Shown here: positions 43,417 through 64,000 of the stretch, piece by piece
Position numbering within the stretch: position 1 is the stretch's first letter
Layout of the letters: each line of letters opens with the position of its first letter
Origin: Chthoniobacterales bacterium
GTDB taxonomy: Bacteria > Verrucomicrobiota > Verrucomicrobiia > Chthoniobacterales > UBA10450
Direction: 5' to 3'
Assembly: GCA_035274845.1 (NCBI GenBank)
Contig: DATENU010000020.1
Span: 1-64,000 of the forward strand
Length of the DNA stretch: 64,000 nucleotides
Notes under the pieces: model-generated
The model's database searches: none
Seen by the model: only the letters and a program-made list of their open reading frames with translations
Told to the model about the DNA's origin: nothing
Program-made: the position numbers and the translations under genes

Positions 43417-46400
43417 ATGAAAACCCCATTCGTTTACCGACTCGCCCTTTCCCTTTCTGCCGTAAGTTTTATCACCTTCATAGGCATTTTGCGCGCCGAT
43501 GAGCCTGATTACGGTAACCCGACCGGCGCCTCCGGGCAGTTTAACGGCTCCGTCCAGACCGGTTGTAATTACGATCCGCTGACTGGAAATGCCCGCCGTT
43601 CTCTGGTGGATATCTCCGTTACGGGTGCGGTGACGCCGCTCGCCTTCATTCGCACGATGAACAGCCGGACCAACCTCGGTCCAGCCACCAGCGCGCTCTA
43701 CTATCCATTCGGAAAAGGAGGCGCCTGGCGTCACAACTACCAATGGGAAGTCACTAGCCCCGCGACGCAAGTCATCGGGGATGATCCCTGCTACGTTATG
43801 CCGCCATCCAGCTACACCGTGACATATCCCGACGGCAGAAAAGTGACGTTTCACGCGGATGGATCGAGCGCGACGACGGGTATTGGCGATCGTATGAGCG
43901 GCCTGGAATTTCCCGAGGCGGATGTCGTTACGTGTTCTCTTATTCTGTCCGATGGTAGTCGGATTAAGTTTAACGTCACCACGCACAACTCTCCTCCGGC
44001 CCCACTCTGCATTCCTGTTGGAAATACTATCTATCATACGGGTTACACTTACGCCGTCACCGGGATCATTAACCCCTACGGCCAGGAAACCACGATTGCG
44101 TGGAATAACGGCAAGATCGACACCATCACCGAGCCGGCCGGCCGAAGCCTCAAACTATATTACAACTCTGATAGTACGATCGACCGGGTGGAAGAATGGG
44201 CCCGCAGCCTCCCGACTGTAATTGTGGGAAGAACCGTGCAGTACCACTATTCCAGCTTCAACGACGGCACAACCGTCCTGGACAATGTGGTCTATTTCGG
44301 TGATTCGTCGCTCACCGCCAAATATACCTATCAGGCCAGCAATGAGATCTTCGCGAATCCTCCCAAGCCGCCCCTTATAAGAAGTTGTGACGATCCAATA
44401 TATTCCGGGGCGATGAACCGGATCGTGTACGATTTCGCCAGCGATCGCCCCCATGGGTTCATCGAGAGCGAGCGCTACTTCGATGGAAACTATCCGGTAA
44501 ACCCCGGCCCCAAAGTCTCCAGCCTCGCAATCGATCCCGCGAATTCGAACAAAAGAATCGAAACTCGCGGCGATGGGCCCTCGCGCACCTTCACCTACCA
44601 GGGTGGGCTCCTGAAGAGCTGGACTGATTTCAAGGCGACTCCGAACACGAATACGTTTTCGCAAGAGCACTTCACAAGCGGAGCTACTGGTTTTATCCGT
44701 TACGTCAAGGATGCGCGGCAGAATCAAACCGACTTCGTCCGCGATTCAGTTACAGGGCATATGACCGAGGTGACATTTCCTTTGACACCCTCGGATGATA
44801 ACGCGAACGGCAGCCCGCCAGTCCCGAAAAAACAGATAATCGAATACGACTCGAATCCCGGTGGGTATTATGTGATGAGCACGACTAATGAACGCGAAAA
44901 GCAGACCTTTTACAGGCGTGACACGTCCAGCCGGCGGGTTTCCGACATTGATTACCCTGACGGCGGACACGAAGGATTTCAGTATAACGGCTTCGGGCAG
45001 GTAACGAGATATGAACGGAAGAATGGATACTTCGAGCACGTGAGATACGATCCTCGCGGCTTGCTAGAACATCGTTCAGCTCCGACGGCGAACGGGACGA
45101 TGGAGCTTACGGTGGGTGCCCCACAGACAACACTAACCTACTATCCGTTGGGTGATCCATGGCAAGATCGACTCAAATCCGTCACCGATTTGCGACAAAA
45201 GACAACTATCTACGAATACGAGAGGTCAAATGGCACGGCGATTGCCGGGCGGGGCTTAATTTCGAAAATCATACACCCAGACAACAGTTACGTTTCGTTT
45301 GGCTACGACTCCCGGGGTAATAAGCTCTGGCAGGAAAACGAGTTGCGGCAGAGGACCAGTTTTTCCTACGACGCCTACAATCGTCTTATTACCGTTACGC
45401 TTCCTTTGCCAAACAATCGATCTGGAGTCATGAGTTATGAATACGACCCGAGCGCGAATGTTCATGTCCCCACTTCGCCCAGTTATCGCCACACGTCGTC
45501 GGCAGTTAGTAAGATAACGAGTGCTGAAGGAATTATGACCACGCACCGCTACGACGAAAATTTCCGGCGGATTGAAACAACTGAAGGGGCAGGAAGCAGC
45601 GACGCCGCCACTACGCATTACGATTTTGATCCAGTGGGCAATCTAGAGTTTGTAACCGATCCTCGGACCTACCAAACACACCTTGAGTACGATCAGCGTA
45701 ATCGCCGGAAAAAAGTCACCAGCCCAGAAGTAACAACTGAATCTGGTCCTGCCCGGTATATCACAGAATGGTTTTACGATCCCGTTGGCAATGTGCGCGA
45801 TATCCTACAGGCGGACCAAACTAAAATTCATCGTGAGTACGACGCAATGAATCGCCTTTGGACGCATGACTTGATCAGTCAGGACGGACAACGCCATCGC
45901 ATCTCAACCTTCCAATATTTTCCGTCAGGTCGAGTTTGGAAAGTAAAAGATCCCAAAGATCAGACCACTGAATTCGGCTACGATGGACGCGACTTGAAAT
46001 CGTTAATGAAATATCCCAATGGTGCGATTTTGCAAGGTTGGGAGTATGACGGCAACGAAAACATGACAAAGCGGCCGACTATCGGCTTGCCGACACAGAC
46101 ATTCACTTACGACGATCGAAACCGATTGGAGCATATGCGATGGAGCAATGGCGTTGATTTTAGCGACTTCGGCTATAACGACGCGAGCCAATTGACATGG
46201 GCGGTCAATCCGAACTCAACGATTACTCGGGACTACGACCAGAGGTCGGGACGCATGAACTGGGAACGACAAGTTCTTGCTGCCACCTCGAATCCCGCCG
46301 CGATCACAATTGCTCCGATAGCTATCGCTTCTCGAAAAGCCCACGGAGATGCTGGCGCTTTCGACATTGCTCTGCCTCTAACCGGCGATCCCGGAATCGA

Positions 46401-48663
46401 GTGTCGCAATGGCCCGGCGTACACGATAGTTCTAACTTTTGCGGAGTCTGTAACGGTAGGTGGCGCCTCAGTCAATTCAGGAATTGGTTCGGTGGCGAAC
46501 ACGTCGGCGAATGGGAATACTGTAACCGTTAATCTGACGGATGTCAGCAACGCCCAAGTGTTAACTGTGAAGGTTTTTGGACTATCCAATGGCACGACAA
46601 CGGGAGAATTGATCGTTCCAATGCATATTTTAACCGGCGACATCACCGGGGACGGCGCGATCAACAAAGATGATGTTTTGCAAGTAGAGGAACAGGAGAA
46701 TCAGCATATTGAGTCTAGCAATTTCCGATCGGACGTAAATACTGACGGGGTCATAAACGGCGACGATGTGAACGACGTAAGCGAAACCTCCGGTGAGGAC
46801 GAGCAAGCTGTTGCAGCGGCGGGCCCGCAGGCCACGGTGGAATATAGATATGACGATGATGGAAGGCCCAAGAACCTCTCCGTCTTGCCTATTTACTCGT
46901 ATGATTACACATACGACGGACTTGGACGTCTTGAATGGATTACGGAACCAAACGTTACTCCTGGCAATGAAGGAAGCTACAAATATTCCTACGATCCCGC
47001 CTCCAACGTGACCGCCCGTGTGAATTACACTAATGGCACAACGCTTTCCTTTGCGCCGGACGAACTGAACCGGCCTACCCAAGAAGCCATCCTGTCAGGG
47101 AACGACACCTTGTCACATCTTCACCACGGGTACGATTCGATGGGACGACTCAGTTACACATACCGCGAGGAGGAACCGGGACTGGTCGACACCTTTGTCT
47201 ACGATTTCACGGGCGAGCTAACCCTCCCCCAATATGGCTTGCATGTAAATGAGCATGGCGAAATTGAAAGCCCACAGACTGTCCCAACCTTTGTTTATGA
47301 CTTTGCGGGAAATCGCTTATCGGAGCAGGGCGCGCCGTACGTGCTGAACCCACAGCCACTCAACCAGTATATTCAAACCCCAGGCGGCGCCGTGAGTAAC
47401 GGGCCGCAACACGAGATCATTTCCTACGATAACGCGGGCTACGCGTATCGTGGCGACACGCGCCTCGCGGTAGTAGCGGCACCAGTGTCAGCCGGAGGAG
47501 ACCTCTACCAGCTCGGCTACGACGCGTTAGGCCGCACTGTTAAGCGAAAGATGAACCAAGGCCCGAACCAGGACACGAAGTATTTTATCTATGATGGTGC
47601 CCGGTCGATCATTGAATATGACGGCGCCGGAATTGTAAGGGGACGCTCGCTATATGGATTGGGGCTGGATGAGATTATCGCGCGTGATAACAACGGTCAG
47701 CCGCAGTTCCCGATACAGGATCGACTCGGCAGCACCATCGCGGTAACGGGAGCGAACGGACGGCTGTTGGAGAAATATTGGTACGAGGCCTTTGGCACGC
47801 CTCATTTCATTAGCTTTGATAAAGAGGGGAATCCGTTCGACGTCGCGGCAACACACATTAACAACAATATTCTTTTCGCAGGACGCGAATGGGTGTCTCG
47901 CTTCGGGTTCTATGAAAATCGCGCTCGGGCCTATCATCCCGGTTTGGGACGCTTCATGAGCGAGGATCCGTCGGGTTTCGACGGCGGCGACACAAACCTG
48001 TATCGCTATTGCGGGAATGATCCAGTGAACTTTTATGACGATAGCGGGCTCCAGCCGATTCCCGCTGGCCCCGTTGGCCCGGCGCCCCTCCTCTTTCCCG
48101 GGCGTGGGCCCGTTACGAATTGGCCTAATACCCGCCCACAGTTAGACCAAAACGGGATACGAAACACCATGCAGCCAGACGGCTCAATGATATACTACAA
48201 TGCCGCGTTGGTAGAGACCATCCTTCGGAATTTGGGGATAGAACTCAGAGAGGGCCTGGAATTCTTCGGTCCAAAGTACAAGTACAGAGGTGATGTGAAC
48301 GCCGGCGGGCCAAATGTGAATATGAGTTTTCTAACTCGGCTTAGCTCTGTAGCACCAATGCACACAGTTCCCTCCTTGGAGGTAGGAATCGCGGAGGCGA
48401 TTAGTACGGTAAGTGCCTATGCACTAGACCGCGGGCCGGGAATCGGGGAAATTGCTGTGAACGGGCGTGTCATACTCCGCTGGCATTTGGGAGATTCTTT
48501 TGCCTTCCGTGGAACTTTATACTTCCACGGTATTCCAATTAGGGGGCTGGGTAGCGCTCTGATTTCCACCGGCGGCGGCGGCTGGGAAGAAATCAATCCG
48601 GGCTGGGCCTCCTTTCCAGGCCCTGAGGCGGGCGAAGGATTTCACCCACCCGCTGAACCATGA
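43417..48663 (+). CDS. Secreted Rhs/YD-repeat protein with inserted dockerin-type module
   Basis: 1748 residues with an N-terminal signal peptide (LALSLSAVSFITFIGILRAD). Many YD repeats follow (YDSRGNKLW, YDDRNRLEHMRW, YDGLGRLEW), forming an Rhs cocoon. At about residues 960-1138 the repeats are interrupted by a beta-sandwich-like domain and a dockerin type I-like pair of calcium loops (GDITGDGAINKDDVLQV, SDVNTDGVINGDDVNDV); the YD repeats then resume. The core-ending motif is GLGRFMSEDPSGFDGGDTNL then YRYCGNDPVNF (about 1510-1545). The last ~200 residues are unlike the core and would be the variable toxin tip; no known toxin motif is recognised. Two small membrane proteins downstream could be immunity factors. 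Confidence 0.85.
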   Translation: MKTPFVYRLALSLSAVSFITFIGILRADEPDYGNPTGASGQFNGSVQTGCNYDPLTGNARRSLVDISVTGAVTPLAFIRTMNSRTNLGPATSALYYPFGKGGAWRHNYQWEVTSPATQVIGDDPCYVMPPSSYTVTYPDGRKVTFHADGSSATTGIGDRMSGLEFPEADVVTCSLILSDGSRIKFNVTTHNSPPAPLCIPVGNTIYHTGYTYAVTGIINPYGQETTIAWNNGKIDTITEPAGRSLKLYYNSDSTIDRVEEWARSLPTVIVGRTVQYHYSSFNDGTTVLDNVVYFGDSSLTAKYTYQASNEIFANPPKPPLIRSCDDPIYSGAMNRIVYDFASDRPHGFIESERYFDGNYPVNPGPKVSSLAIDPANSNKRIETRGDGPSRTFTYQGGLLKSWTDFKATPNTNTFSQEHFTSGATGFIRYVKDARQNQTDFVRDSVTGHMTEVTFPLTPSDDNANGSPPVPKKQIIEYDSNPGGYYVMSTTNEREKQTFYRRDTSSRRVSDIDYPDGGHEGFQYNGFGQVTRYERKNGYFEHVRYDPRGLLEHRSAPTANGTMELTVGAPQTTLTYYPLGDPWQDRLKSVTDLRQKTTIYEYERSNGTAIAGRGLISKIIHPDNSYVSFGYDSRGNKLWQENELRQRTSFSYDAYNRLITVTLPLPNNRSGVMSYEYDPSANVHVPTSPSYRHTSSAVSKITSAEGIMTTHRYDENFRRIETTEGAGSSDAATTHYDFDPVGNLEFVTDPRTYQTHLEYDQRNRRKKVTSPEVTTESGPARYITEWFYDPVGNVRDILQADQTKIHREYDAMNRLWTHDLISQDGQRHRISTFQYFPSGRVWKVKDPKDQTTEFGYDGRDLKSLMKYPNGAILQGWEYDGNENMTKRPTIGLPTQTFTYDDRNRLEHMRWSNGVDFSDFGYNDASQLTWAVNPNSTITRDYDQRSGRMNWERQVLAATSNPAAITIAPIAIASRKAHGDAGAFDIALPLTGDPGIECRNGPAYTIVLTFAESVTVGGASVNSGIGSVANTSANGNTVTVNLTDVSNAQVLTVKVFGLSNGTTTGELIVPMHILTGDITGDGAINKDDVLQVEEQENQHIESSNFRSDVNTDGVINGDDVNDVSETSGEDEQAVAAAGPQATVEYRYDDDGRPKNLSVLPIYSYDYTYDGLGRLEWITEPNVTPGNEGSYKYSYDPASNVTARVNYTNGTTLSFAPDELNRPTQEAILSGNDTLSHLHHGYDSMGRLSYTYREEEPGLVDTFVYDFTGELTLPQYGLHVNEHGEIESPQTVPTFVYDFAGNRLSEQGAPYVLNPQPLNQYIQTPGGAVSNGPQHEIISYDNAGYAYRGDTRLAVVAAPVSAGGDLYQLGYDALGRTVKRKMNQGPNQDTKYFIYDGARSIIEYDGAGIVRGRSLYGLGLDEIIARDNNGQPQFPIQDRLGSTIAVTGANGRLLEKYWYEAFGTPHFISFDKEGNPFDVAATHINNNILFAGREWVSRFGFYENRARAYHPGLGRFMSEDPSGFDGGDTNLYRYCGNDPVNFYDDSGLQPIPAGPVGPAPLLFPGRGPVTNWPNTRPQLDQNGIRNTMQPDGSMIYYNAALVETILRNLGIELREGLEFFGPKYKYRGDVNAGGPNVNMSFLTRLSSVAPMHTVPSLEVGIAEAISTVSAYALDRGPGIGEIAVNGRVILRWHLGDSFAFRGTLYFHGIPIRGLGSALISTGGGGWEEINPGWASFPGPEAGEGFHPPAEP

Positions 48664-50814: not shown

Positions 50815-53800
50815 TTGCCACTGTCAGAGAGCCGAAGCACGTTGGTCGAAAGCATTTGGGATTTTGCTTTCGGATACGACTACTTTGTGTGCCACAGCTG
50901 GAAAGACTCGCACGCGTACGCTGAAGCGATAGTACGCGGATTGGAGCCAGACTTGCGGTGCTTTATCGACTCGCGGGATTTCGAAAAAGGTGCCTCATGG
51001 ACAATCCAAGGAGCGCAAGCATTACGACGCAGCACGATGCTAATTGTCGTGCTGAGCCCAGGCGCTTTATCTTCGGAACCGGTTTATGACGAAGTCACCT
51101 ATTTTGTAGCGAGGAGGCCTCATAGGCGAGTTGTCACGATTAATATAAACGAGACCTATTCCCAACTGCCGAGCGAGCACCGCTTGTACCGGTTGCTGTT
51201 CGCCGAGAGATTGCGGATTCCTGAGATTGTTGCGGGTCCCCTTGAGACTCCGTCTGAGTCGGTTCTGCTTGAACTAAAGCGGAACTTCAGATTCGTCCAT
51301 CAAAATACGAAAAGATTGCGAATCCTAAAAGTAACGATTGCACTTTTGCTGGGGCTGAGCCTCTGCGCATTGTTCGCGGCAGGATATTCCCAAAAGCAGC
51401 GGAACCTGGCGCTTCTTGAACGCAATATCGCTCGCGTGGGCGAGGGCAGATTTTATCTTGAGCGGGCTAAACAATCCATCAGCGGTGGAGTTGGCACTTA
51501 TCCATTGCTGCCGATTTATGCGTCTCGTGCCGTTGGTTTTCCAACAACGGGTCCTGTTGGCGAACGGAGCAAGCGCTTTCCCCAGCTTCTAAGTCCGGAT
51601 GCCACCCCAGACGAATATCAAGACGCTTTGCGTTTGGCCGGTTGGAACCTGGCCGCGCCGGTTCTCATCTGGTCGAGTCCGCTTGTCCGACAGCACGCGA
51701 ATTCCATTACGCTGCTTCAGTCGTTGCCCGGATCGCGCCTGTTCTCTCTGGATGCCTCCGGATATTCGCGTATTTGGAACTTGAAGACAAACACGATGGA
51801 AGGAGCCCGTCGGTTCGAGGGTGACGTCAGCCATGCCTGCGCAAGCTTGGATGAGAAGGTTTGGGCTGTCTGCAGCCACGATGGACAAATTGCCATTTTC
51901 AATGCGGATACTTGGTTTCCCATTCAGTCGTTAGCGGGCGGACTACGAGATATGTATTTGTCGCTGGACGAGCACGGGCGACGGTTAAGCATAACCGGAA
52001 AAGACACGGTGGAAATTTGGGAGAAGAGCACTGGGAATCGGCTTCAGATCATTAGACTACCTCAAACGAATCTTCCACAGTCCGGCCTGCTTAGTCCCAC
52101 GGGGGATTATGTTGCCGTAAAGTCGGACGGAAAAGTGACCGTTTACGATGTCGCAACAGGAAAAATCTTTCCTCACCTACCGTCCATTGCCGATACTGGC
52201 GTAAAGGCTTTTAGTTGGTGTGGCCGGACAGAGCGCCTGTTTCTTGTAGGAAATGACGGTAGCTGCTATATAACTGACATACGCGGAGCGACCGAGCGCA
52301 TCGCACCATCCGAACCGTGGGGCGATGGTTTCAGTTGTTTTGTCAGCCCGTCCGGGCGCTTCGCCGTTTCACGGCCAACTCCCGATTCTCGTTTAGGGAA
52401 AGCGATGCTTTGGGATCTGCCTGCGAAGAAATGTCTTGGTCCTTTGCAGCGCTTTCCTGGGAGAGGTCCGGTCTCGTCGTTTTGGTTCTCAAAGGACGAT
52501 CAATTGCTTTACGGTGGATCCACCTTTGGAACCATTACTGCCTGGCAGCTGCCGTCGGGCCGCTTGGACGCCCGATATGCGCACGGTCACGGCGGTCCTG
52601 TGTACGATGTGGCATTTTCCCCAGATGGGAGCATTTTCGCGAGCGCTGGCACGGATGGAACGATCGAAGTGTGGGATTCGGCAAATGGCTCTATCAAGCA
52701 GTCCGCCGCGTCTCCCCATTGGAATAGCGAGTACCGCCGGGTTACATTCTTGGGCAAGAGCGGCGTGTTGCTGGCACTGGACCGCGCCGGGCTGCTGGTG
52801 CGAATCCAGCTAGGGCACCCCGAGCCAATCCAGGAATCGTTTCAATTGCGACCGGGTCAGGCATTCGCCATGGCCGTCAATCCCGACACTGCGGAGGTCG
52901 CCGTAGGATTCACTTGCGGCCGGATCGAAATTCGCAAGCTTGCTTCGCTGCACGAAGTTGATCGGCAATACGAAATTGGAGCCCGCAACGATCCGGAATT
53001 TCGCGCTCTGGATGCCAAAATAAACCTTCCCCAGACGATCACGGCCTTGAGCTTTAGTCCCGGCGGTCGCCGGCTTGCATGTGCCATATCCGCGGCGCGC
53101 GCGGGGACCGACCAGAAGGTTCTTCTTCTGGATCCGGATGAGCCCGACCATAAGATTTTGATTATCGATCCGGAAACTGGGCAAAAACTCTTTGGCTTTG
53201 AGGGCGACAAGGAGGCGGTCAATGCAATCGTCTTCAGCCCAGTCGGAGACACGGTAGCGAGTGGGGGACTGGATGGAAAGATTCGTTTTTACGGCTGCTC
53301 CCCCACGCCCAAGACTTACCCTACCAAAGAGGTAGACGGAACGCCGATTACCTCCTTGGCCTATAGTATCGACGGACACTTTTTTGCCGCCGGAACGAAA
53401 TCCGGGAAAATTCGTCTTTGGGACACGACAATCAATCAAGCCGTCGCCGATTTATTAGCTCACTCAGATGCGGTGAATCGGATTGAGTTTTCGCCTGACG
53501 GGTCGTACCTGCTATCCAGTTCAGACGACGGCACCGTCAAGGCCTGGGAGATTGCGAGTGACAACGTCACCTTTGGATCTCATGTCCGCGGTCTGCTCGC
53601 CGGAGACTCCCACCATCCCACCATCGCGATCACTATGCACAATGGCGGCACCATGATCAACGTGGTGGGGGAAGAGACAGGAGGCATCACCGGACGGCAA
53701 CTTAGTGCTGTCGGTTTAGCGAGTTCATGGGCATACAATGCACAAGCAGATCTGCTCGTACTGGGAGGGAACGATCTTCCTGGGGACGGTCAAAGTGTCG

Positions 53801-54954
53801 AGCCCGATGAAACCGCAGGACGTTGTGAACTTTGGCGAACGACAGACATGGAAAAGATTGCCACGTGGACGCCACGACACAGGTTGGTAAAAGCGGTCGC
53901 GATATCGCCGTCCGGGCGGCATGTTGCGACCGCGGGTTGGGAGGGCGTCCGCCTCTGGGATACAGCCAATTTGCAGAGGCCGATCTGGGAGACGTCAGAA
54001 GTGCTCTTCGTCGAAACGATCGCCTTCAGTCCCGATGGAAAGCGACTCATCTTTTCGTCGAGCGCTGGAAAGGCGCGTGGCGCCCTCTTCGGTCCCAAAG
54101 CCAAAGCAGATCCGCGCGGCAATTTGTTCCTGGCTGATGCTTCCAATGGTGAAATCTTGCGGGGCGAGCAAGTGCCGACTTACTCGATTTTAGCGCTAGC
54201 CATTAACCCGCGCGGGGATCAACTGGCCGTCGGGACGAACGGGGCCGGAGTATTTACCTATGACCTGAATGAATCCTCTTTTGGATCTCGCGTTCATCAC
54301 GAGCAGTCCGGTTCGGTCGATGCCGTCGCGTTCAACGAGGACGGAACATATCTCGGGAGCAGCTCAAATGAAATGGGGTTGATGTTATGGCCGTGCGGAG
54401 TGAAGTCAGGATTTGTCCGTCAATTCCTCATCAAGGGTTGCAGCTCGATTGCCTTCGGTGCGGATCGGAAGACTTTGTGGCTCAGTGCGGGAAGAGATAT
54501 TCGGAAAGTCGATCTTCGCCCGGCCGATTATCTCCAGTATTTCTACCCAAACCAAACTATCGACCATGAGCCATCCAAGGATTGGTTTCAACTTGCCGGC
54601 GGGGGTTTTAATCCTTTAGACAAAAACAATTTTCTCGATCGCAACCAAGAGTTTGGATTCGTGAACCTGCGCGGAAACACCCTTGGCGAACAATATCGGT
54701 CCGCGGACGGAGAGGAGCTCCGGAATAGACTGTTCTGGCGCTTCTATAATGCTCGAAACTGGCCGGCCGCGTGGGCCCATTGCGATCAGACGAATAGCGA
54801 ACAGCGTACAAGCATGTTGTTGGGACTTGCGGCAGAAAATTTTGTTCCGACTGCGCGAACATTGCTGCAAGGCATATCGATTGAACCAGTTTCGCAGGTT
54901 GAGATTGAAGCAAGCAAAGGTATCAAGACAATGGATAAGGATAAGATTCCTTAA
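50815..54954 (+). CDS. TIR-transmembrane-WD40 repeat protein
   Basis: 1379 residues from TTG 50815. A TIR domain lies at ~20-150 (YDYFVCHSWKDSHAYAEAIV, RCFIDSRDFEKGASW, MLIVVLSPGALSSEPVYDEV). One membrane helix follows at ~168-192 (VTIALLLGLSLCALFAAGY), then a basic helical segment. A long array of WD40 blades runs from ~280 to ~1290, including VYDVAFSPDGSIFASAGTDG and VNRIEFSPDGSYLLSSSDDG, enough for two propellers. A ~90-residue C-terminal part follows. The Glu of NADase-type TIR domains is not obvious in ASWTIQGAQAL. Likely a sensor-type protein: propellers outside or inside the membrane detect a partner and the TIR signals. A defence role is inference from domain types. Confidence 0.8.
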   Translation: MPLSESRSTLVESIWDFAFGYDYFVCHSWKDSHAYAEAIVRGLEPDLRCFIDSRDFEKGASWTIQGAQALRRSTMLIVVLSPGALSSEPVYDEVTYFVARRPHRRVVTININETYSQLPSEHRLYRLLFAERLRIPEIVAGPLETPSESVLLELKRNFRFVHQNTKRLRILKVTIALLLGLSLCALFAAGYSQKQRNLALLERNIARVGEGRFYLERAKQSISGGVGTYPLLPIYASRAVGFPTTGPVGERSKRFPQLLSPDATPDEYQDALRLAGWNLAAPVLIWSSPLVRQHANSITLLQSLPGSRLFSLDASGYSRIWNLKTNTMEGARRFEGDVSHACASLDEKVWAVCSHDGQIAIFNADTWFPIQSLAGGLRDMYLSLDEHGRRLSITGKDTVEIWEKSTGNRLQIIRLPQTNLPQSGLLSPTGDYVAVKSDGKVTVYDVATGKIFPHLPSIADTGVKAFSWCGRTERLFLVGNDGSCYITDIRGATERIAPSEPWGDGFSCFVSPSGRFAVSRPTPDSRLGKAMLWDLPAKKCLGPLQRFPGRGPVSSFWFSKDDQLLYGGSTFGTITAWQLPSGRLDARYAHGHGGPVYDVAFSPDGSIFASAGTDGTIEVWDSANGSIKQSAASPHWNSEYRRVTFLGKSGVLLALDRAGLLVRIQLGHPEPIQESFQLRPGQAFAMAVNPDTAEVAVGFTCGRIEIRKLASLHEVDRQYEIGARNDPEFRALDAKINLPQTITALSFSPGGRRLACAISAARAGTDQKVLLLDPDEPDHKILIIDPETGQKLFGFEGDKEAVNAIVFSPVGDTVASGGLDGKIRFYGCSPTPKTYPTKEVDGTPITSLAYSIDGHFFAAGTKSGKIRLWDTTINQAVADLLAHSDAVNRIEFSPDGSYLLSSSDDGTVKAWEIASDNVTFGSHVRGLLAGDSHHPTIAITMHNGGTMINVVGEETGGITGRQLSAVGLASSWAYNAQADLLVLGGNDLPGDGQSVEPDETAGRCELWRTTDMEKIATWTPRHRLVKAVAISPSGRHVATAGWEGVRLWDTANLQRPIWETSEVLFVETIAFSPDGKRLIFSSSAGKARGALFGPKAKADPRGNLFLADASNGEILRGEQVPTYSILALAINPRGDQLAVGTNGAGVFTYDLNESSFGSRVHHEQSGSVDAVAFNEDGTYLGSSSNEMGLMLWPCGVKSGFVRQFLIKGCSSIAFGADRKTLWLSAGRDIRKVDLRPADYLQYFYPNQTIDHEPSKDWFQLAGGGFNPLDKNNFLDRNQEFGFVNLRGNTLGEQYRSADGEELRNRLFWRFYNARNWPAAWAHCDQTNSEQRTSMLLGLAAENFVPTARTLLQGISIEPVSQVEIEASKGIKTMDKDKIP

Positions 54955-55018: not shown

Positions 55019-57496
55019 TTATTCAGCCTGTAGCATCCGCGCCGGATCGATTCTGGTCGCACGCCATGCAGGAATGATAGTTGCCAATGCAGCCGACCCG
55101 ATGAGTACAACGAGTACGGAGCACATTGTCAGAGGATCAAAGGCGGCTACTCCGTAGAATATGTCATCCGAAGGCTGGCCTTGGTAAACGGCCGACCGAA
55201 CAACACGCACAAGTCCCACGGATGCGGGAAGTCCGACGAGAAAGCCGACAAGTAATAGACCGGCGACTTTCCGGAAGACGAGCGACATTACTTGCTGTCG
55301 ATTAGCGCCAATCGCCATTCGCAAAGCGATCTCTCGGGTACGCTGAGCCACCCAAAATGCAAGCGTCCCGTAGATTCCGACGGCCGTCGCGACCAAAGCG
55401 AACATGGCAAAAAGTACCAGCAATGTCCCATTGAACCTTCGTGCCAGTTGTGACGCGCGAATGCGTTCTGCCATCATTTCCATATCATAAACCGGCTGAC
55501 TCGGATCCAGCTTCAAAATGGCGTCGCGCACACGATCTGCCAAGCCCGGCGATTTAGTGCGCGTCTCGGCCACTACAAACATGGACGGCACCGGGCTTTG
55601 CGCGAAAGGAATATACACGACGTTGTGAGGCTGCTCGGTGACATCCCACTGTTTGCCGCTGGCGACAACTCCCACGATTTGCGCAACGCGCGGCTCCACA
55701 TTATCCGGATCGAGGCGCTCGGCCGGTTCGATCTCGAGTTGCTTGCCTATGGGAGACTCTGATGGGAAAAGTTGACGCCCGAGATGTTCGTTAATCATGA
55801 TTACGGGCGGCGCTCCCTGGACGTCCGTAACGGTAAACGATCTGCCGAGGGTGATTCGGACTCCGAGTGTGCGAAAATATTCCGGAGTCACAAGGACGGT
55901 TTGAGCGTCCATTTGCTCGCCGGTATTCTGTGCTCGACCTGGTTGAGTTATGCGATTTCCCATTGCTCCCGAAGTAAATGGCAAGTGGCTGACCGCGGCC
56001 ACCTCGCCTATACCGGGGGTATTCTTGAGGCGGTCGAAGACCATGGCATAAAAGGTGGCGATCTGGTCACCTGTCTTATATCGAGGGCCCTGCGGAAAAA
56101 GATGAAAGCTGAGCAGATTCCCAGACTGGAAGCCGATATCAGTCTGTTGTAACCGCCAAAGGCTCCGAATTAAGAGGCCGGCGCCTGATAATAAAACCAC
56201 GGTTAGCACTACCTGGGAAGTAACAAGGAAACCTCTCAGTCGCTGCCGTCCCAAGCCAGCGCCGCCGGACCGGTCACTCTGGCGCAGCCAGTCGTTGATT
56301 TGAATTCCGCCCGAAAAGAGTAAAGGCACGATGGCAAAAAATATGGCCATGCCTGCCGAAAGCGCTGCGATGCCGAACAATACACTCGTATCAATTCGCA
56401 CCTCAGCCAGACGCGGGATATCAGCCGGGGCAACGGACAAAACAGCCCGCCGAAACCCATCCGCGATCCAGATGCCGAGAACCGTACCACCGAATACAAG
56501 AATGATACTTTCGCTTGCCGAAAGACGCAGGATGCTCCAGCGGGTCGCGCCTAGCGCCGCCCGAATCGCCAACTCTTGTTGGCGGCCTGTCCACCTCGCC
56601 AAGAGAAGGCTGGCTACGTTTGTACAGGCAATGAGCAGAACGAAAACGATCGCCGCTTGGAGTATGACTAGAAGGCCTCGATATCCTCCAATCCGTGTCT
56701 CCAGCAAATCTGTCATCTTAACCTCAGGAACGCCATTCACGCCCGGATAAATCTTCGCGAGCTGTGCGGCAATGTTATTCATTTGGGCTTGAGTCTCCGC
56801 AAGGGTGACTGCCGATTTCAATCTGCCGATGACAGTAAGAAGATGCAGATCGCGGTTCTGCATCTCCTTTGAGTTAAAACGAAGCGGAAGAATGACATCT
56901 GCTGTCCGAAAACCGAAGGATTCGAAAATCGGCGGGGCTACCCCGACGATATTGTAGGTTTCTCGGTCGACCGTAATTTTTTGGCCGATCACATCGTGAC
57001 GTGAAGCAAAATGCCTCTTCCATAAAGCATCGCCGATAATTGCGACGGATCGTTCTTCCGTTCCCAATTCATCCTCGACAAACCAACGACCAAGCCGGGG
57101 CTTAAGTCGCAATATCGAAAACAAACTGCCGCTTACACTCCGCACCCCAATGCGCTCGGCGCCATAATTGGTGGCCAAGGTAGCCTCTGTCGCAGCGGTT
57201 GAAGCGGATAAGCCGTCAAAGACTCGGGCTTGCTCGACCCAGTCCTTATAATTCGGTCCAGACACATCCCAGAGAAGTTCGCGTTGCCTTGAGGGTTTTT
57301 CCCATAAAACGACAAGCCTTCCGGAATCTTCGAAGGGGAGTGGCTTCAGCAATACTCCATTAAGCAAGCTAAAGATCGCAGCGTTCGCACCGATTCCAAT
57401 CGCAAGGGAAAGAACCACTGCGATCGTAAATGTAGGACTCTTCGCAACAAGTCTCGCGCTGTAGAAAAGATCGCGAAGAAAACCGTTCATTGACAT
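55019..57496 (-). CDS. ADOP/MacB-type ABC transporter permease
   Basis: 825 residues with the ADOP-family layout: N-terminal FTIAVVLSLAIGIGANAAIF, a MacB-like periplasmic domain (to ~260), three helices of an FtsX domain (with LARWTGRQQELAIRAALGAT), a second periplasmic domain, and a second FtsX domain ending in WRATRIDPARMLQAE. ADOP permeases usually work with a separate ATPase, and none is adjacent. It starts 23 bases after the subunit-3-like gene in the same direction, so it is probably the last gene of the lasso operon and could help export or self-protection. Confidence 0.88.
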   Translation of the reverse strand: MSMNGFLRDLFYSARLVAKSPTFTIAVVLSLAIGIGANAAIFSLLNGVLLKPLPFEDSGRLVVLWEKPSRQRELLWDVSGPNYKDWVEQARVFDGLSASTAATEATLATNYGAERIGVRSVSGSLFSILRLKPRLGRWFVEDELGTEERSVAIIGDALWKRHFASRHDVIGQKITVDRETYNIVGVAPPIFESFGFRTADVILPLRFNSKEMQNRDLHLLTVIGRLKSAVTLAETQAQMNNIAAQLAKIYPGVNGVPEVKMTDLLETRIGGYRGLLVILQAAIVFVLLIACTNVASLLLARWTGRQQELAIRAALGATRWSILRLSASESIILVFGGTVLGIWIADGFRRAVLSVAPADIPRLAEVRIDTSVLFGIAALSAGMAIFFAIVPLLFSGGIQINDWLRQSDRSGGAGLGRQRLRGFLVTSQVVLTVVLLSGAGLLIRSLWRLQQTDIGFQSGNLLSFHLFPQGPRYKTGDQIATFYAMVFDRLKNTPGIGEVAAVSHLPFTSGAMGNRITQPGRAQNTGEQMDAQTVLVTPEYFRTLGVRITLGRSFTVTDVQGAPPVIMINEHLGRQLFPSESPIGKQLEIEPAERLDPDNVEPRVAQIVGVVASGKQWDVTEQPHNVVYIPFAQSPVPSMFVVAETRTKSPGLADRVRDAILKLDPSQPVYDMEMMAERIRASQLARRFNGTLLVLFAMFALVATAVGIYGTLAFWVAQRTREIALRMAIGANRQQVMSLVFRKVAGLLLVGFLVGLPASVGLVRVVRSAVYQGQPSDDIFYGVAAFDPLTMCSVLVVLIGSAALATIIPAWRATRIDPARMLQAE

Positions 57497-58041: not shown

Positions 58042-59703
58042 CTAGAGATACCCTCTTTTCACCTGGTTAAGCAAGAACTCCGAAGCACGCCAAGCCAGGG
58101 CGAGAATCGTTAACGTAACCGGCTTGTCAGAACTCGAAACGAAAGAACTCGCATCCATTACAAACAGATTTTTTACGTCATGAGCCTGGCAAAAGCCGTT
58201 CAAGGCAGCGGCTCTTGGATCACGGCCCATCCTAATCGTACCCTGCTCCTGAAACCCCTCCCCGCCAGGATTGCCGACTAATTCCCCAGGATCGGGAATG
58301 CAGGTACCGCCTCCCGCCTCCACGATAGCGCGGAACGAACGCTGCATATCGTCTATCATCTTGAACTCATTGTCCCCCAAAGCGAATTGAAAACGGAGTG
58401 TCGGAATCCCCCAACGGTCCATGAGGTTGTTGTTGATCTCGCAATAACTTTCATCGTTCGAAATCATCTCGCCCGCTGCTATGAAATTAATGTAGCAGCC
58501 ATAAACATCGCGGCAACGACGCTTCAATTCAATCCCGTAACCCTCGTGTCTTTCGACCTCAAGGGCGAATGCGCTTACGAGGGGCACGTTTCTTCCTCCA
58601 TTGAAGAGAATGTGATATCCGCGCAAGAAATCGTTCTTGGCTCCAGCTTTCCACCAGGGAATCCAAAGGTGGGGTCTCCCCGTTCCATCGTGATTGTGAG
58701 GCGGAACTCTTGTTAGTTGTGGGAAAAACCCCGCGGCTCTACTCACCACAGAATCGCGAAGGTAACGGCCAACGACCCCAGAGGAATTTGCAACACCATC
58801 GGGAAATATCGTTGACCTCGAGTTTAACAGGAGTCGCGTAGATTCGCAGGTGCCCGCCGCTAAGACAACGACCCGCGCTCGCACCTGTCGCTCAGAATAG
58901 CTCTGCTTGTCGATGTACGACACCGCCCGAATTCGCGCGTCGCTACTCACGAGTAGCTCCCGTGCCATAGCGTTGGTGATCAAGGTTAAGCGGCCGGTTG
59001 CCAACGCCGATGGAATCAAGACCTGGGCCGAGCTAAAGCACGAATTCGATTTGCAGCCTCGATAACATTGGCCGCAATAGTGGCAGGCAGGCCGCCCGCG
59101 ATGCGGCTGAGTTAGAATAGAGGCAGTGCACGGCACGCACGGAATTCCGACTTTCTGGCAGGCCTTTCCGACAAAAAGCTCAGTACACCTCGGTTTAGGT
59201 GGAGGCATGTTACCCGCTCCGAATACCCCAATAAGATCTTCGACCCTGTCGTAGTAGGGCGACAAGTCTTCGTAAGTAATCGGCCAGTCTTCACCATGCC
59301 CGTCAAGTGACCGACCAATAAAGTCATGCGGCTGAAAACGGGCCACGCCTTGGCCCCAGTGGTTCGTTCGACCGCCCACTCCGCGAGCTCGAAACCAATT
59401 AAAGGGCTTGCGCCGGCTACGGGTATACGGTTCTCCTGGAATCGTAAAGCCAGTTTGGGGCGGATATAAATCGTCACCGTCCCCTCCTTTCGACAGACCA
59501 CGGCGCGGAAGTTCGTACACCCACATGTGCTGTTTGAAATCAACTTCAGGGTTGATAGAGGGGCCTGCCTCCAACAACACTACATCAAGGCCGGCCTCGG
59601 TGAGGAGTTTCGCTGACATTCCACCCGCGGCCCCGGAGCCGATAATGCAGACGTCGTAGATCCCAGCGTTCGGACCTGCAAATGACATTGATTGCGAGAT
59701 CAA
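58042..59703 (-). CDS. GMC-family FAD oxidoreductase
   Basis: 553 residues. The dinucleotide-binding VCIIGSGAAGGMSAKLL (residues ~18-34) is followed by LLEAGP, RARGVGGRTNHWGQGVARF, and a Cys-rich stretch CHYCGQCYRGCKSNSC (~215-230). The FAD-closing GTIRMGRDP, AHDVKNLFVMDASSFVSSSD and TLTILALAWRA complete it. It is close to the gluconate-dehydrogenase/sorbose-type large subunits. The His before GT.RMG and the Asn of the NPT motif, usual active-site residues, seem replaced (Q-E-Q-G; DKPVTLT). Substrate unknown. Operon position suggests a tailoring reaction on the lasso peptide, or an unrelated sugar/alcohol oxidation. Confidence 0.85.
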   Translation of the reverse strand: MISQSMSFAGPNAGIYDVCIIGSGAAGGMSAKLLTEAGLDVVLLEAGPSINPEVDFKQHMWVYELPRRGLSKGGDGDDLYPPQTGFTIPGEPYTRSRRKPFNWFRARGVGGRTNHWGQGVARFQPHDFIGRSLDGHGEDWPITYEDLSPYYDRVEDLIGVFGAGNMPPPKPRCTELFVGKACQKVGIPCVPCTASILTQPHRGRPACHYCGQCYRGCKSNSCFSSAQVLIPSALATGRLTLITNAMARELLVSSDARIRAVSYIDKQSYSERQVRARVVVLAAGTCESTRLLLNSRSTIFPDGVANSSGVVGRYLRDSVVSRAAGFFPQLTRVPPHNHDGTGRPHLWIPWWKAGAKNDFLRGYHILFNGGRNVPLVSAFALEVERHEGYGIELKRRCRDVYGCYINFIAAGEMISNDESYCEINNNLMDRWGIPTLRFQFALGDNEFKMIDDMQRSFRAIVEAGGGTCIPDPGELVGNPGGEGFQEQGTIRMGRDPRAAALNGFCQAHDVKNLFVMDASSFVSSSDKPVTLTILALAWRASEFLLNQVKRGYL

Positions 59704-59727: not shown

Positions 59728-61638
59728 CTAGGACAAGATGCAGGAAAGAGGCCTGGACGCGCGGATCAACGTCAATTCTTGTTCAACTCCGGACGATGAA
59801 GCCTTTCGCCTTTCGACAAGGTTACTTTCGCATATGTTCCGGTACATTTCATTTCGTAGGCTCACTTCGCGGTGCGAGCCCTCATCGACCAGCCGACCAC
59901 CGGTCATGAAAATTATGCGATCTACCGACTTCATCACGACAGGGTTATGGGTCACGAACAGCAACGTCGCCGGCCCTGCCAGGTCAGTGAGGTTTCTTAA
60001 AACGCGCTCTTCGGTCGAAGCATCCAGCGCAGAAGTAGACTCGTCCAGCACCAACATGCGTGGTTCTCGCAGAATGGCTCTCGCGAGAGCCACGCGCTGA
60101 CGTTCCCCACCCGAGAGTTTTGTGGCTCTCGGACCTAACTGCTCGTTCCACCCCCCCCGCAAAGCGGACAAAACGGGCACAAGCTCCGCGACCTCGACGG
60201 CATGCTCCAATTTTCTGGGAGTGATCGCCGAACGCCCGCATAATAAATTGTCGCGAAAAGAACCCTCGAAAAGGATTGGCTCCTGGGGGACGACTAACAC
60301 GCTGGAACGCAGGCTGCGTAGGTCCAAGGAGCGAATGTCGAAGCCGTCGACCTCGATCGAACCTTTCTGAACGTCGTAAAGCCGTGCTAAGAGCCTCGTG
60401 ATTGTACTTTTGCCGCTGCCGGTTCTTCCCACGATCGCCACTCTTTCCCCAGCATCTACCGCGAAGCTCACCGACTCGATTCCGATCCTGCCGTCCTGGT
60501 AGGTAAATGAAACATTCTCAAAATGCACGGTTGCGGCTTCAATTCTCTCTAGTGTTATCGGCGAGACGGGATTCTCAATCGCACTTGGCGTCTCCAAGAC
60601 TTCACGGACGCGCCGAACGCTTACGCGTATCCGTTGCAGCTTTGTATCAAGCTCAATCAATCCGGCGATAGGCTCGAATAGCCTCATCAAATAGCCCCAA
60701 AACGCTACCAATCCACCCACCGTCAAGATTCCAGACATGACTTGAAAGCCACCAGCGACAAGCATCAGACCAATCCCCGCACCCATTACCAGAAGAGAAA
60801 GGCCGGAATAGAGCATCTCCGTTCGTCGTCTGCTCATTTGCGCGATCATGGATCGGCGAGCTGAAAACAAGAAACGCCGTGCTTGGGCGCGCTCGTTACA
60901 AAGAAGCTGCGACTGCGCAATGGCTGGAACTTGTTCCTGGAGGAACGAACTTCGAGCAGCAGATGCGGTTTGCACATTGTCTGACTGTGTCGCAACCAGA
61001 CGCCGATAACGGTAACGCACCAAGACGAAGACTGGTGCTAATGGCAAACAAATTACGGCAAGCCTCGCGTTCAGCATGAACATTGCCGCTAAGTTGAGCA
61101 CAAGGAAGATTGTCGATCGAAATGAGGAGGAAAACAGATCTTCACCCGCCCGGCCGATTTGCTCCACGTCCTGTTCAAGTCGGAAAACGAGCTGGCCCGG
61201 CGGCGTATTATCATGGTACGCACTCGATTGGCGCTGAAGATGTCGCAACGTCTTGAATCGAAGGCGCACCGCCAGCCGTTGCGCCGCCTCGGTTCCGACT
61301 TTTGCGCCTTGGACCCCGAAAAACAGTCTGCCGCCATATGCTAGAAGAAATCCACAGCCCGCCGCCGCCAACGCTGTAGCGTCCCTTCCCGGGATGACCC
61401 TATCAATAACCCATCGCATCAGCAGTGGATCAACTAAGCTGATGAGGCCGCTGCCAGTCGTGTAGAAAAGACTTAGAATGTATAGTGGCAAGTAACGGCG
61501 AGCGTTACCAATTAGCCACTTAATGTCGTTGAACATTTTGAATAAACTGAACCGCTTTGAATAAACTTCAGATACCCATAGCACGGCTAGGTCAAATGCG
61601 TTGAGAACAACTGATGCAGAGTTAGCTACGCTCTGCAC
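59728..61638 (-). CDS. ABC exporter, lasso-peptide type (ATPase-permease fusion)
   Basis: 636 residues from GTG 61638; an internal ATG at 61536 is an equally likely start. The transmembrane domain (~45-335) has the six-helix exporter pattern. The ATPase has Walker A VAIVGRTGSGKSTITRLLAR, Q-loop VVPQEPILFEG, signature KLSGGERQRVALARAIL, Walker B MLVLDESTSALD and His-loop LFVTHNPV. No C39 peptidase domain, consistent with lasso D proteins, where the leader is removed by a separate protein. It begins 20 bases after the second precursor. Confidence 0.9.
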   Translation of the reverse strand: MQSVANSASVVLNAFDLAVLWVSEVYSKRFSLFKMFNDIKWLIGNARRYLPLYILSLFYTTGSGLISLVDPLLMRWVIDRVIPGRDATALAAAGCGFLLAYGGRLFFGVQGAKVGTEAAQRLAVRLRFKTLRHLQRQSSAYHDNTPPGQLVFRLEQDVEQIGRAGEDLFSSSFRSTIFLVLNLAAMFMLNARLAVICLPLAPVFVLVRYRYRRLVATQSDNVQTASAARSSFLQEQVPAIAQSQLLCNERAQARRFLFSARRSMIAQMSRRRTEMLYSGLSLLVMGAGIGLMLVAGGFQVMSGILTVGGLVAFWGYLMRLFEPIAGLIELDTKLQRIRVSVRRVREVLETPSAIENPVSPITLERIEAATVHFENVSFTYQDGRIGIESVSFAVDAGERVAIVGRTGSGKSTITRLLARLYDVQKGSIEVDGFDIRSLDLRSLRSSVLVVPQEPILFEGSFRDNLLCGRSAITPRKLEHAVEVAELVPVLSALRGGWNEQLGPRATKLSGGERQRVALARAILREPRMLVLDESTSALDASTEERVLRNLTDLAGPATLLFVTHNPVVMKSVDRIIFMTGGRLVDEGSHREVSLRNEMYRNICESNLVERRKASSSGVEQELTLIRASRPLSCILS

Positions 61639-61657
61639 CAGCTGTGACAGCCACTGC

Positions 61658-61798
61658 CTAGACGGTGTCGTCGTCGGAGTCTATGTTCGGATCCTTCCTG
61701 CCGCTGCAATTGCAGCAGTCAGAGAACGGTCCGCCAGCTCCCATTACGAGTTCTTCTGCCTGGCCGATCTCGACAATCTCAGGTGCTTCGTATTTCAA
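61658..61798 (-). CDS. Lasso-type RiPP precursor peptide A2
   Basis: 46 residues from a TTG start with a perfect AAAGGAGGTG site eight bases upstream. The leader MKYEAPEIVEIGQAEELVM has the lasso spacing Y-x2-P-x-I-x3-G-x7-G (Val where Thr is usual at -2). The predicted core is GAGGPFSDCCNCSGRKDPN followed by IDSDDDTV: Gly1 and Asp8 could close an eight-residue ring; Cys9, Cys10 and Cys12 follow; the tail is acidic. It differs from A1 at nine positions by eye, only one of them in the leader. Placement between cyclase and exporter supports the call. Confidence 0.82.
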   Translation of the reverse strand: MKYEAPEIVEIGQAEELVMGAGGPFSDCCNCSGRKDPNIDSDDDTV

Positions 61799-61806
61799 TT
61801 GTGTTT

Positions 61807-61816
61807 CACCTCCTTT
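61807..61816 (-). promoter_or_regulatory. Shine-Dalgarno site of precursor A2
   Basis: AAAGGAGGTG on the minus strand, eight bases from the TTG at 61798. It matches the anti-Shine-Dalgarno sequence almost fully and decides the TTG start, for which there is no ATG alternative near the leader. Confidence 0.85.
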
Positions 61817-61841
61817 CGGTCATCGTTCGATAAGCGACTAC

Positions 61842-61982
61842 TTAAATGGTGTCGTCGTCGGAGTCTATGTCCGGAAGTTTTCTGCTGCTGCAAGTGCAGC
61901 AATCAGCGAACGCCCCCCCGGCGCCCATTACGAGTTCTTCCGCCTGGCCGATTTCGACAATCTCTGGTGTTTCGTATTTCAA
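61842..61982 (-). CDS. Lasso-type RiPP precursor peptide A1
   Basis: 46 residues from TTG 61982, which overlaps the cyclase stop as TTGA, with AAAGGAGGTG eight bases upstream. The leader MKYETPEIVEIGQAEELVM is nearly identical to A2. The predicted core is GAGGAFADCCTCSSRKLPD followed by IDSDDDTI: Gly1-Asp8 ring, CCTC just after the ring, acidic C-terminal IDSDDDTI. A longer frame upstream is the cyclase gene read in another frame and was rejected. Alternatives such as sactipeptide or lanthipeptide are not supported because no radical-SAM or Lan enzyme is present. Confidence 0.83.
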   Translation of the reverse strand: MKYETPEIVEIGQAEELVMGAGGAFADCCTCSSRKLPDIDSDDDTI

Positions 61983-63949
61983 TTGTGTTTCACCTCCTTT
62001 CGGTCGTCGTTTGATAAATCTATCCGAGGGCGGAGACTTAGCCCGTTTAGGTCTCGGCATCCGCCTGACGAAAACGCGTCTAACGCCGACTTGGTTCTGT
62101 CGGTCGAGCGCCGTTCGCGCCCGCGCAGCCAAAATTCCAACGAAAGGACGCGCAGCAATGACGGCGTTGCACTGCAGAGTCCATGTTTTGCTCGAAAGAG
62201 TTCGCGGAGGAATGATTCTCCGTGGATGTAGCCCAGTTTGGAGACTTCGGCATCGCTAAACATGTGCACTAAGTCGGACCAAGTACGGGACAGACCCCGC
62301 AATAGTGACTCATCCGGACCTTGTTTGCTTTTACGTAATCGTATGGCCTCCGGCAAAACGCCTTTCATGGCCCGGCGATGAATGGATCGGGATTCGGTCG
62401 GGCGAAGTTTTTGGCCGGCCGGAATGCCGATTAGGAATTCGACAAGGCATCTGTCTAGGAATGGATAGCTAACATCACAACATCCTTGCTCGCGGTAATA
62501 GCATTGGGACGTAAAGGAAATCGCCTCATCAAGCAGTTTACGTTGTTGTCCGCGCACAACGTCGAATAGTAGTCCAGCGGGCTGCCTGTTCACTCCACGC
62601 TCCGGTCGCCCCAGGCGCTCCACTAGAACAGGGCCCATCCACGACCTCGGGAAAATGGTGCTAGGTATTTGCGGTCTCCGTAGGCAAATAGACATCAGCG
62701 GCCCGACCAGGCCTGTCCAGAGCAACTCCATCGTGGTGGCTTTGTGCGCATTAGCCCAGTTTTTGGCTGCGCGGAAAGCTGCGAACGGTTTCCCTCGCTT
62801 CATCAGAGAAATTAGGTCCGGGCAAAGGACCTCCTCGTTCAGGGTTACTTGATCCCCTCCGAAGCCAGATAACAGGCTCGAAGCGCCCAGCGATTCGAGA
62901 GTTCTCTGCAATCCTGCAAACATATCGTGAAAGAGCTCGAGACAGCTCGGTCGGAATGCCATTGACGGAGACAGCCGCACTATATTGTGATCTTCGAGAA
63001 AGAGCGTCCTCGCTTCTCGGAACTGCTCGACTTCCCTGATGAACCGTCGCTCGTCCGATGTTCGCGATCCGTCGTAAAGGTAAGAGACGGTTGCGATTTT
63101 CCCGACGTCCTTCCCCAGCACTCCAGATAACTGATCGGCGACGCAGACAATGGACGAAGAATCCAAGCCGCCACTTAGCTCGGCGATCGACACGCCGGGC
63201 ATTGTTAATCGTCGCTCCACGCTTTGAGTGAACAACTCTCGAAAGCGAGCCTCATAATCGGCGTCGCTTTCCAATCTTACCTCGTCGCATGACTCAGCAC
63301 TCCAGAAACGGCGGTGACTCACATTTTGCTCGCTAATGCACGTGACATGACCGGGCCGTATGGCAAAAATACCACGGTAAGGAGTCTTGCCATGGTCTTC
63401 AGTCGCCAGGAGATAGCTGGCGAGGTATTCCTTATCAAGTTCTGGGGCGCCTCCGAAATGCTCTACGAAATAACTTAATTCCGAACACCAAATCGCCATC
63501 GAATCGTCAATGTAATAATATAATGGTCGGGTGCCGAACGGATCTCGCGCCAGATATAATTGTCTGGTTACCGGATCCCAACAGGCTAGTGCGTAGTCAC
63601 CTATGAGACGCGACCACAGCGCCGGCCCTAGGGCTGAATATGCCTTCGCCACTAACGGAGCGTCTTCGACCCCCTCGTCATGCCATTCACAGGCCGCTGC
63701 AATACTCGATCGGTTATCAAGACGTCCATCCCATGCGAGAAGAACCTTGTTGTCATCGGACACCGGTTGAGTCGGCAACGCCAGATCCCTCATTGTTGTC
63801 ATTGACATTGCGACCCCTGCTGCTCGCGCGCTGCGCACTCGCCGCCGAGGGTCCAAGCGAAGGAGATGCGCTTCCAAGCCGGTACAAAGCTCGTGGGGAT
63901 CCTGCGAGCGTTGCCTAAAGAAAATGCCGCCGTGCCGAGTGACATTCAT
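61979..63949 (-). CDS. Lasso peptide cyclase (asparagine synthetase-like, C protein)
   Basis: 656 residues. An N-terminal Ntn-glutaminase-like domain (~1-190) lacks the Cys at position 2, so it cannot be a glutaminase. The AsnB domain has the PP-loop SIAELSGGLDSSSIVCVAD, LLSGFGGDQVT, and the C-terminal SYPFLDRCLVEFLIGIPAGQ and RKSKQGPD segments. Such cyclases adenylate the ring Asp/Glu and form the isopeptide bond with the core N-terminus. It is coupled to A1 by a TTGA overlap, and its last codons encode the A1 ribosome site. ATG at 63949. The B proteins should lie upstream, past the window edge. Confidence 0.85.
   Translation of the reverse strand: MNVTRHGGIFFRQRSQDPHELCTGLEAHLLRLDPRRRVRSARAAGVAMSMTTMRDLALPTQPVSDDNKVLLAWDGRLDNRSSIAAACEWHDEGVEDAPLVAKAYSALGPALWSRLIGDYALACWDPVTRQLYLARDPFGTRPLYYYIDDSMAIWCSELSYFVEHFGGAPELDKEYLASYLLATEDHGKTPYRGIFAIRPGHVTCISEQNVSHRRFWSAESCDEVRLESDADYEARFRELFTQSVERRLTMPGVSIAELSGGLDSSSIVCVADQLSGVLGKDVGKIATVSYLYDGSRTSDERRFIREVEQFREARTLFLEDHNIVRLSPSMAFRPSCLELFHDMFAGLQRTLESLGASSLLSGFGGDQVTLNEEVLCPDLISLMKRGKPFAAFRAAKNWANAHKATTMELLWTGLVGPLMSICLRRPQIPSTIFPRSWMGPVLVERLGRPERGVNRQPAGLLFDVVRGQQRKLLDEAISFTSQCYYREQGCCDVSYPFLDRCLVEFLIGIPAGQKLRPTESRSIHRRAMKGVLPEAIRLRKSKQGPDESLLRGLSRTWSDLVHMFSDAEVSKLGYIHGESFLRELFRAKHGLCSATPSLLRVLSLEFWLRGRERRSTDRTKSALDAFSSGGCRDLNGLSLRPRIDLSNDDRKEVKHN
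61991..62000 (-). promoter_or_regulatory. Shine-Dalgarno site of precursor A1
   Basis: AAAGGAGGTG inside the last codons of the cyclase gene, eight bases before TTG 61982. The identical site and spacing recur 184 bases downstream for A2, so the duplicated unit includes the ribosome site. Confidence 0.85.
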
Positions 63950-64000
63950 CTGTTCAAAACCGATCTAGCTCGGGGTACAAGCCTTTCACACGAGCGTTGT

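Follow-up and report, generated by a model that had tools for sequence, protein, structure and literature searches.

Lasso peptides mature through leader removal, ring closure and export, steps that have been reviewed for the pathway as a whole (PMC9266682). Their classes are defined by disulfides, and the reviewed classes have two or four paired cysteines. In several studied cases these disulfides form without a dedicated enzyme, even where candidate oxidases are deleted or absent (PMC9266682). Ile or Val at leader position -2 is a known rare variant that occurs in Acidobacteriaceae and Sphingomonadales, and in BsfA, which has Ile at this position, cleavage before Gly1 has been proved experimentally (PMC10368454).

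The stretch of 64,000 nucleotides analysed here (the window) encodes, on its minus strand, two precursors of 46 residues each that differ at 8 positions: A1 (61842..61982) and A2 (61658..61798). Both begin with a TTG codon preceded by AAAGGAGGTGAAACACAA, a strong ribosome site. A1 consists of a leader of 19 residues, MKYETPEIVEIGQAEELVM, followed by the core GAGGAFADCCTCSSRKLPDIDSDDDTI, and A2 of the leader MKYEAPEIVEIGQAEELVM followed by the core GAGGPFSDCCNCSGRKDPNIDSDDDTV. A2 is a tandem duplicate of A1 at a spacing of 184 bp, and a comparison shifted by this distance reveals that the duplication also took in the final ~35 nt of the cyclase gene, the stop codon of which shares bases with the A1 start codon (TTGA). 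As stated in the preliminary description, Gly1, Asp8, Cys9, Cys10 and Cys12 occupy the same positions in both cores, and the variable positions it named are among the 7/27 core positions that differ (A/P5, A/S7, T/N11, S/G14, L/D17, D/N19 and I/V27). The tail is P(D/N)IDSDDDT(I/V), so that the DSDDDT(I/V) ending reported earlier stands, whereas the I/N alternation placed before it does not, Ile20 being constant and the alternation being D/N at position 19. The nucleotide differences between the cores are evenly divided (8 synonymous and 8 non-synonymous), and since dN/dS is 0.19 in the core (0.16 over the whole gene), the core as a whole is, by this sequence measure, under purifying selection. 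At Gly1, Gly3, Gly4 and Asp8 the codon has changed synonymously between A1 and A2 while the residue was kept, which is direct, though small, evidence for the ring.

Counted back from Gly1, Tyr-17, Pro-14, Ile-12 and Gly-8 match the lasso leader register exactly, and the core is for this reason taken to start at Gly1. Both precursors thus carry the Tyr-17, Pro-14 and Leu, Ile or Val at -12 required of a lasso leader, and the acidic residue required at core positions 7-9 is present as Asp8. The usual, non-obligatory Thr(-2) is absent and replaced by Val; a comparison with the published BsfA leader (PMC10368454) finds the two registers to be equal. The NCBIfam lasso leader model matches both leaders weakly, with E values of 0.004-0.008 and scores of 16-17 bits, under its cut-off of 19. 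Nevertheless, the weak fit to this model, the presence of a lasso cyclase and a B protein as neighbours and the dN/dS of 0.16 together place the observation beyond chance.

The putative lasso cyclase C, a member of the asparagine synthase family (61979..63949, minus strand; Pfam Asn_synthase, E 2e-25), has an SGGLDSS ATP motif at residue 259, and its top NCBIfam match is the lasso cyclase model NF033535 (E 4e-71, under the exact cut-off of that model). The window ends within a fused lasso B gene, of which it holds the 3' end (63954..64000, minus strand). The whole gene, most of which lies beyond the window, spans contig positions 63954-64808 (L003:3955-4809, P0001) and encodes 284 residues with a PqqD-like leader-binding domain (E 7e-7) and a transglutaminase-like peptidase (Transglut_core3, E 1e-18); the lasso_biosyn_B2 model exceeds its cut-off. 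Cys226, His258 and Asp270 are in place and, by analogy, may serve as the Cys-His-Asp residues of the peptidase. The leader-binding domain can be aligned, though weakly, with the solved TbiB1 (E 0.06) and has Phe54 where TbiB1 has Tyr. A general coupling of an aliphatic -2 residue to this Tyr-to-Phe change was considered and rejected, as a Priestia protein has Tyr together with Ile(-2); all the same, a native Val(-2) leader paired with Phe54 lends itself to testing how residue -2 is recognised. The exporter D (59728..61536, minus strand) has the membrane and ATPase domains of an ABC exporter and no C39 peptidase domain. Its preferred start is the ATG at 61536; an alternative GTG at 61638 falls inside an RNA hairpin that lies between A2 and D (61607..61645, minus strand). 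This hairpin has a 15-bp inner stem and no U-tract, its fold z-score is -3.0 with 1/200 shuffles equally stable, and it may lift the level of the precursor mRNA above that of the exporter mRNA. A promoter and terminator scan of the locus gave nothing beyond chance. The order B-C-A-A-D and the short gaps between the genes suggest a single operon, and this gene set amounts to a complete lasso cluster of known kind with a new core.

Searches for relatives of the precursors returned little. No homologous precursor was found among 197 relatives, where only weak matches, taken in bulk, were obtained, and none was found in viral contigs; phages searched with a Bacillota precursor gave no match. In 387 genomes of the phylum, GGxxxDCCxC with a leader occurred in A1 and A2 only. 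Across 84,980 species genomes, a collection that may omit the genome of the window itself, the leader register combined with (D/E)8-CCxC gave 17 in-register matches, all attributable to chance (stops or no leader), with the rigid spacing of the CCxC pattern such that variants would be missed. Peptide patterns of the cyclase found nothing in the species genomes, and a scan of the phylum with NF033521 gave nothing above cut-off. A search with the B protein gave no match among 386 further genomes of the phylum and only four weak ones among 299 genomes of the phylum to which a Spiribacter record (L098) belongs. Relatives of the B protein in Pseudomonadota (L115-L118) came with one recognisable precursor only, of the ordinary Thr(-2) type. 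The Asp8-CCxC arrangement therefore appears to be new, in that no second genome among those examined has it.

On plasmids, the cyclase is matched best in Priestia megaterium and Paenibacillus cellulosilyticus, at 25-27% identity. Nine comparator precursors from six loci, the closest relatives that the searches yielded, were assembled from the neighbourhoods of cyclase matches and from a precursor-profile search of 319 Bacilli genomes. All nine keep the leader register (with Phe for Tyr in two), have Ile or Val at -2 and carry Gly1 and Glu8 (9/9), so that an acid is found at core position 8 in 11/11 precursors when A1 and A2 are included. Together with the register shared with BsfA and the presence of B, C and D, this supports the earlier proposal that A1 and A2 are lasso-type precursors with a predicted Gly1-Asp8 ring. 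The cysteines are another matter: each comparator has a single ring cysteine and three to five more in its tail, which makes four or six altogether, and none at positions 9, 10 or 12. The alignment of homologous precursors that had been suggested as a check hence bears out the acid at position 8 in all nine relatives but Cys9, Cys10 and Cys12 in none. In the Bacilli clusters the precursors lie beside B1, B2, C, exporter and MauE-like genes, and some of the clusters also have DsbA and VKOR genes. The MauE gene was confirmed in L121 and is annotated in L126, DsbA-like and VKOR genes were confirmed in L121 and L136, and the redox genes of the other loci were read by eye. The core motifs of the group are GCGGWGxE and GxCGWGxE, three of its clusters are on Priestia and Paenibacillus plasmids, and a literature search did not find its core motif.

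The GC content is 0.53-0.55 at the cluster and 0.57-0.65 further out on both sides. A low-GC stretch (0.52-0.55) covers window positions 42000-64000 and continues in L003 to about 7500, which suggests that more than the lasso cluster was acquired as one block. It contains another large open frame (43417-48663) and the gene (50815-54954) for a protein of 1379 residues that has a TIR domain at its N-terminus as well as WD40 propellers. Upstream of B, on the opposite strand, L003:5769-7259 encodes a Glucose/sorbosone dehydrogenase-family protein and adjoins a frame that, by eye, ends in a LuxR-like DNA-binding region. Downstream of D on the minus strand are a GMC flavin oxidoreductase gene (58042..59703) and its partner, encoding a Gluconate 2-dehydrogenase subunit 3 family protein (PF13618; 57520..58038). 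An 825-residue MacB/FtsX-type permease (55019-57496) comes right after this pair on the same strand and may or may not be part of the lasso cluster. The genome has no PF13618 member other than the partner, and 7 congeners gave no match to it, for which reason the GMC pair seems to be part of the acquired block and probably arrived with the lasso cluster. Among solved structures, the GMC protein is closest to FAD glucose dehydrogenase (6A2U, E 2e-44) and fructose dehydrogenase (7W2J). It is a GMC flavoprotein as they are, with a gluconate-2-dehydrogenase-subunit-3-like partner gene and no cytochrome subunit gene seen alongside; the alignment to 6A2U spans a cysteine-rich segment that differs here, one aligned Cys being His. 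The preliminary description had mentioned the oxidoreductase of the operon next to the cysteines, which was misleading: its nearest relatives oxidize alcohols, not thiols, and, judged by family, the protein is no thiol oxidase.

The account that we favour, with somewhat better than even confidence when its proposal for the cysteines is included, is that of a lasso cluster, B-C-A1-A2-D, with a GMC dehydrogenase pair, horizontally acquired and making two lassos. The shared register, Gly1 and acid at position 8, the identification of B, C and D, the dN/dS of 0.16, the low GC and the absence of B from the rest of the phylum all argue for it, and horizontal acquisition of the cluster is, on these grounds, probable. 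By the known pathway, B would read Val at -2 and cut after Met(-1), C would condense the amine of Gly1 with the side chain of Asp8, closing a ring of 8 residues through which the tail passes, and D would export two lassos of 27 residues with an acidic end. Cys9, Cys10 and Cys12 would then lie in the loop directly behind the ring. That three cysteines cannot all pair within one chain, as was pointed out earlier, is correct arithmetic, and is sharpened by the even cysteine counts of the comparators and the thiol-redox genes near them, neither of which this cluster has. A Cys9-Cys12 or Cys10-Cys12 disulfide, formed spontaneously after export, appears most likely; the remaining thiol might then link two chains or a target. 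One intra-chain disulfide with one remaining thiol, ending as a dimer or a mixed disulfide, is the likeliest reading of the cysteines, although its chances fall slightly short of even. A broader proposal, that the three-thiol CCxC behind the ring leads either to covalent lasso dimers (homo- or heterodimers, given the two paralogues) or to a thiolate metal site, in both cases outside classes I-IV, is put forward more tentatively. Against the favoured account as a whole stand the leader score just below the NCBIfam cut-off, the rarity of Val(-2) and the lack of a thiol oxidase gene near the cluster, and the cysteine proposal draws on just two closely related cores.

It may be asked whether the cysteines are a functional unit at all. 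They could have been preserved by duplication, with incidental thiol chemistry and the activity residing in ring and tail. All three are identical in A1 and A2 and all are encoded by TGC without synonymous change, so that their codons give no internal evidence of selection; seven random changes over the 27 core positions leave any three given positions untouched with P=0.39; and the searches described above found no CCxC homologue. On the other hand, the absence of replacements in the cysteine codons (~8 sites) at the synonymous divergence of the pair, 0.38, has a P of about 0.02 (0.007-0.09 over the pS rates in leader and core, with the synonymous rate taken as neutral), and it is unlikely that three cysteines among 27 residues, all beside the ring, would persist without a use. 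The earlier impression that the cysteines are selected is thus weak, favoured by the synonymous rate but not by position or by codon changes. Selection on them is likely, even though gene conversion or chance could mimic the sparing of their codons, and incidental cysteines are accordingly an improbable explanation. A somewhat less improbable one, and the chief alternative to the disulfide, is that the three cysteines and the acidic tail form a thiolate site for a soft metal such as Cu(I) or Zn, in which case the lasso would stay reduced and act as a metal binder or metallophore. The CxxC/CxC spacing in the loop, the six acidic residues, with IDSDDDT unchanged between A1 and A2, and an operon that, unlike those of the Bacillota relatives, is devoid of thiol-oxidation genes would fit such a site; however, neither a transporter or regulator for metals nor a receptor was identified in the cluster, and the characterised lasso peptides in the literature searched offer no precedent, leaving the idea doubtful.

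About equally doubtful is the notion that the lasso is tailored by the GMC flavoprotein together with its small partner, through alcohol oxidation at Ser13, Ser22 or Thr26 or through thiol oxidation. The GMC gene is closely spaced to D on the same strand, the two genes seem to move together with the cluster, given that the partner has no second copy in the genome and is missing from 7 congeners, and the felipeptin lasso cluster also has a flavin oxidoreductase, of unproved role (PMC9266682). Yet the closest solved relatives act on sugars, and the literature search found no link between GMC oxidoreductases and lasso peptides. Finally, the product might be no lasso but another leader-dependent modified peptide, made with a PqqD-like B protein and an asparagine-synthase-like enzyme. 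C does fall far under the exact-family cut-off of the lasso-cyclase model it matches and shares just 27% identity with the best of its relatives on plasmids, but the B2 model scores above its cut-off, the leader register with Gly1 and an acid at position 8 recurs in all relatives, and an exporter is present, making this a very remote prospect.

The A1 and A2 cores can be set against the known classes. Class I lassos have four cysteines, one of them at core position 1, and two disulfides, whereas the cores here have three and start with Gly1; class III lassos have a ring cysteine for a ring-tail disulfide, and here the cysteines are at 9, 10 and 12 only. In class IV (LP2006, pandonodin and the felipeptins) two tail cysteines are joined in one tail-tail disulfide; A1 and A2, which might form such a bond, have three tail cysteines, all directly behind the ring. 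BsfA of Bradymonas sediminis and its predicted Ile/Val(-2) kin resemble them in Tyr-17 and Pro-14, the aliphatic -2 residue, Gly1 and the Asp8 ring, but BsfA is phosphorylated on Ser3, while the present cluster has no kinase and its cores have post-ring cysteines and an acidic tail (PMC10368454). The cysteine-rich Ile/Val(-2) group of Bacillota (L121, L122, L126, L136, L137 and L138) has the same leader register, Gly1 and acid at position 8, and its precursors are often paired as well. It is set apart by Glu8, a ring cysteine at position 2 or 3, an even cysteine number and cores of 39-59 residues, none of which A1 and A2 have, and by split B1/B2 and MauE-like genes, mostly beside thiol-redox genes, in place of a fused B without thiol-redox genes. 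No lasso with an odd number of cysteines was found in the reviews and mostly open-access literature searched, and an odd, clustered set such as Cys9, Cys10 and Cys12 would call for a bond between chains, an unpaired thiol or a bound metal; according to that literature, any of the three would be new for the family.
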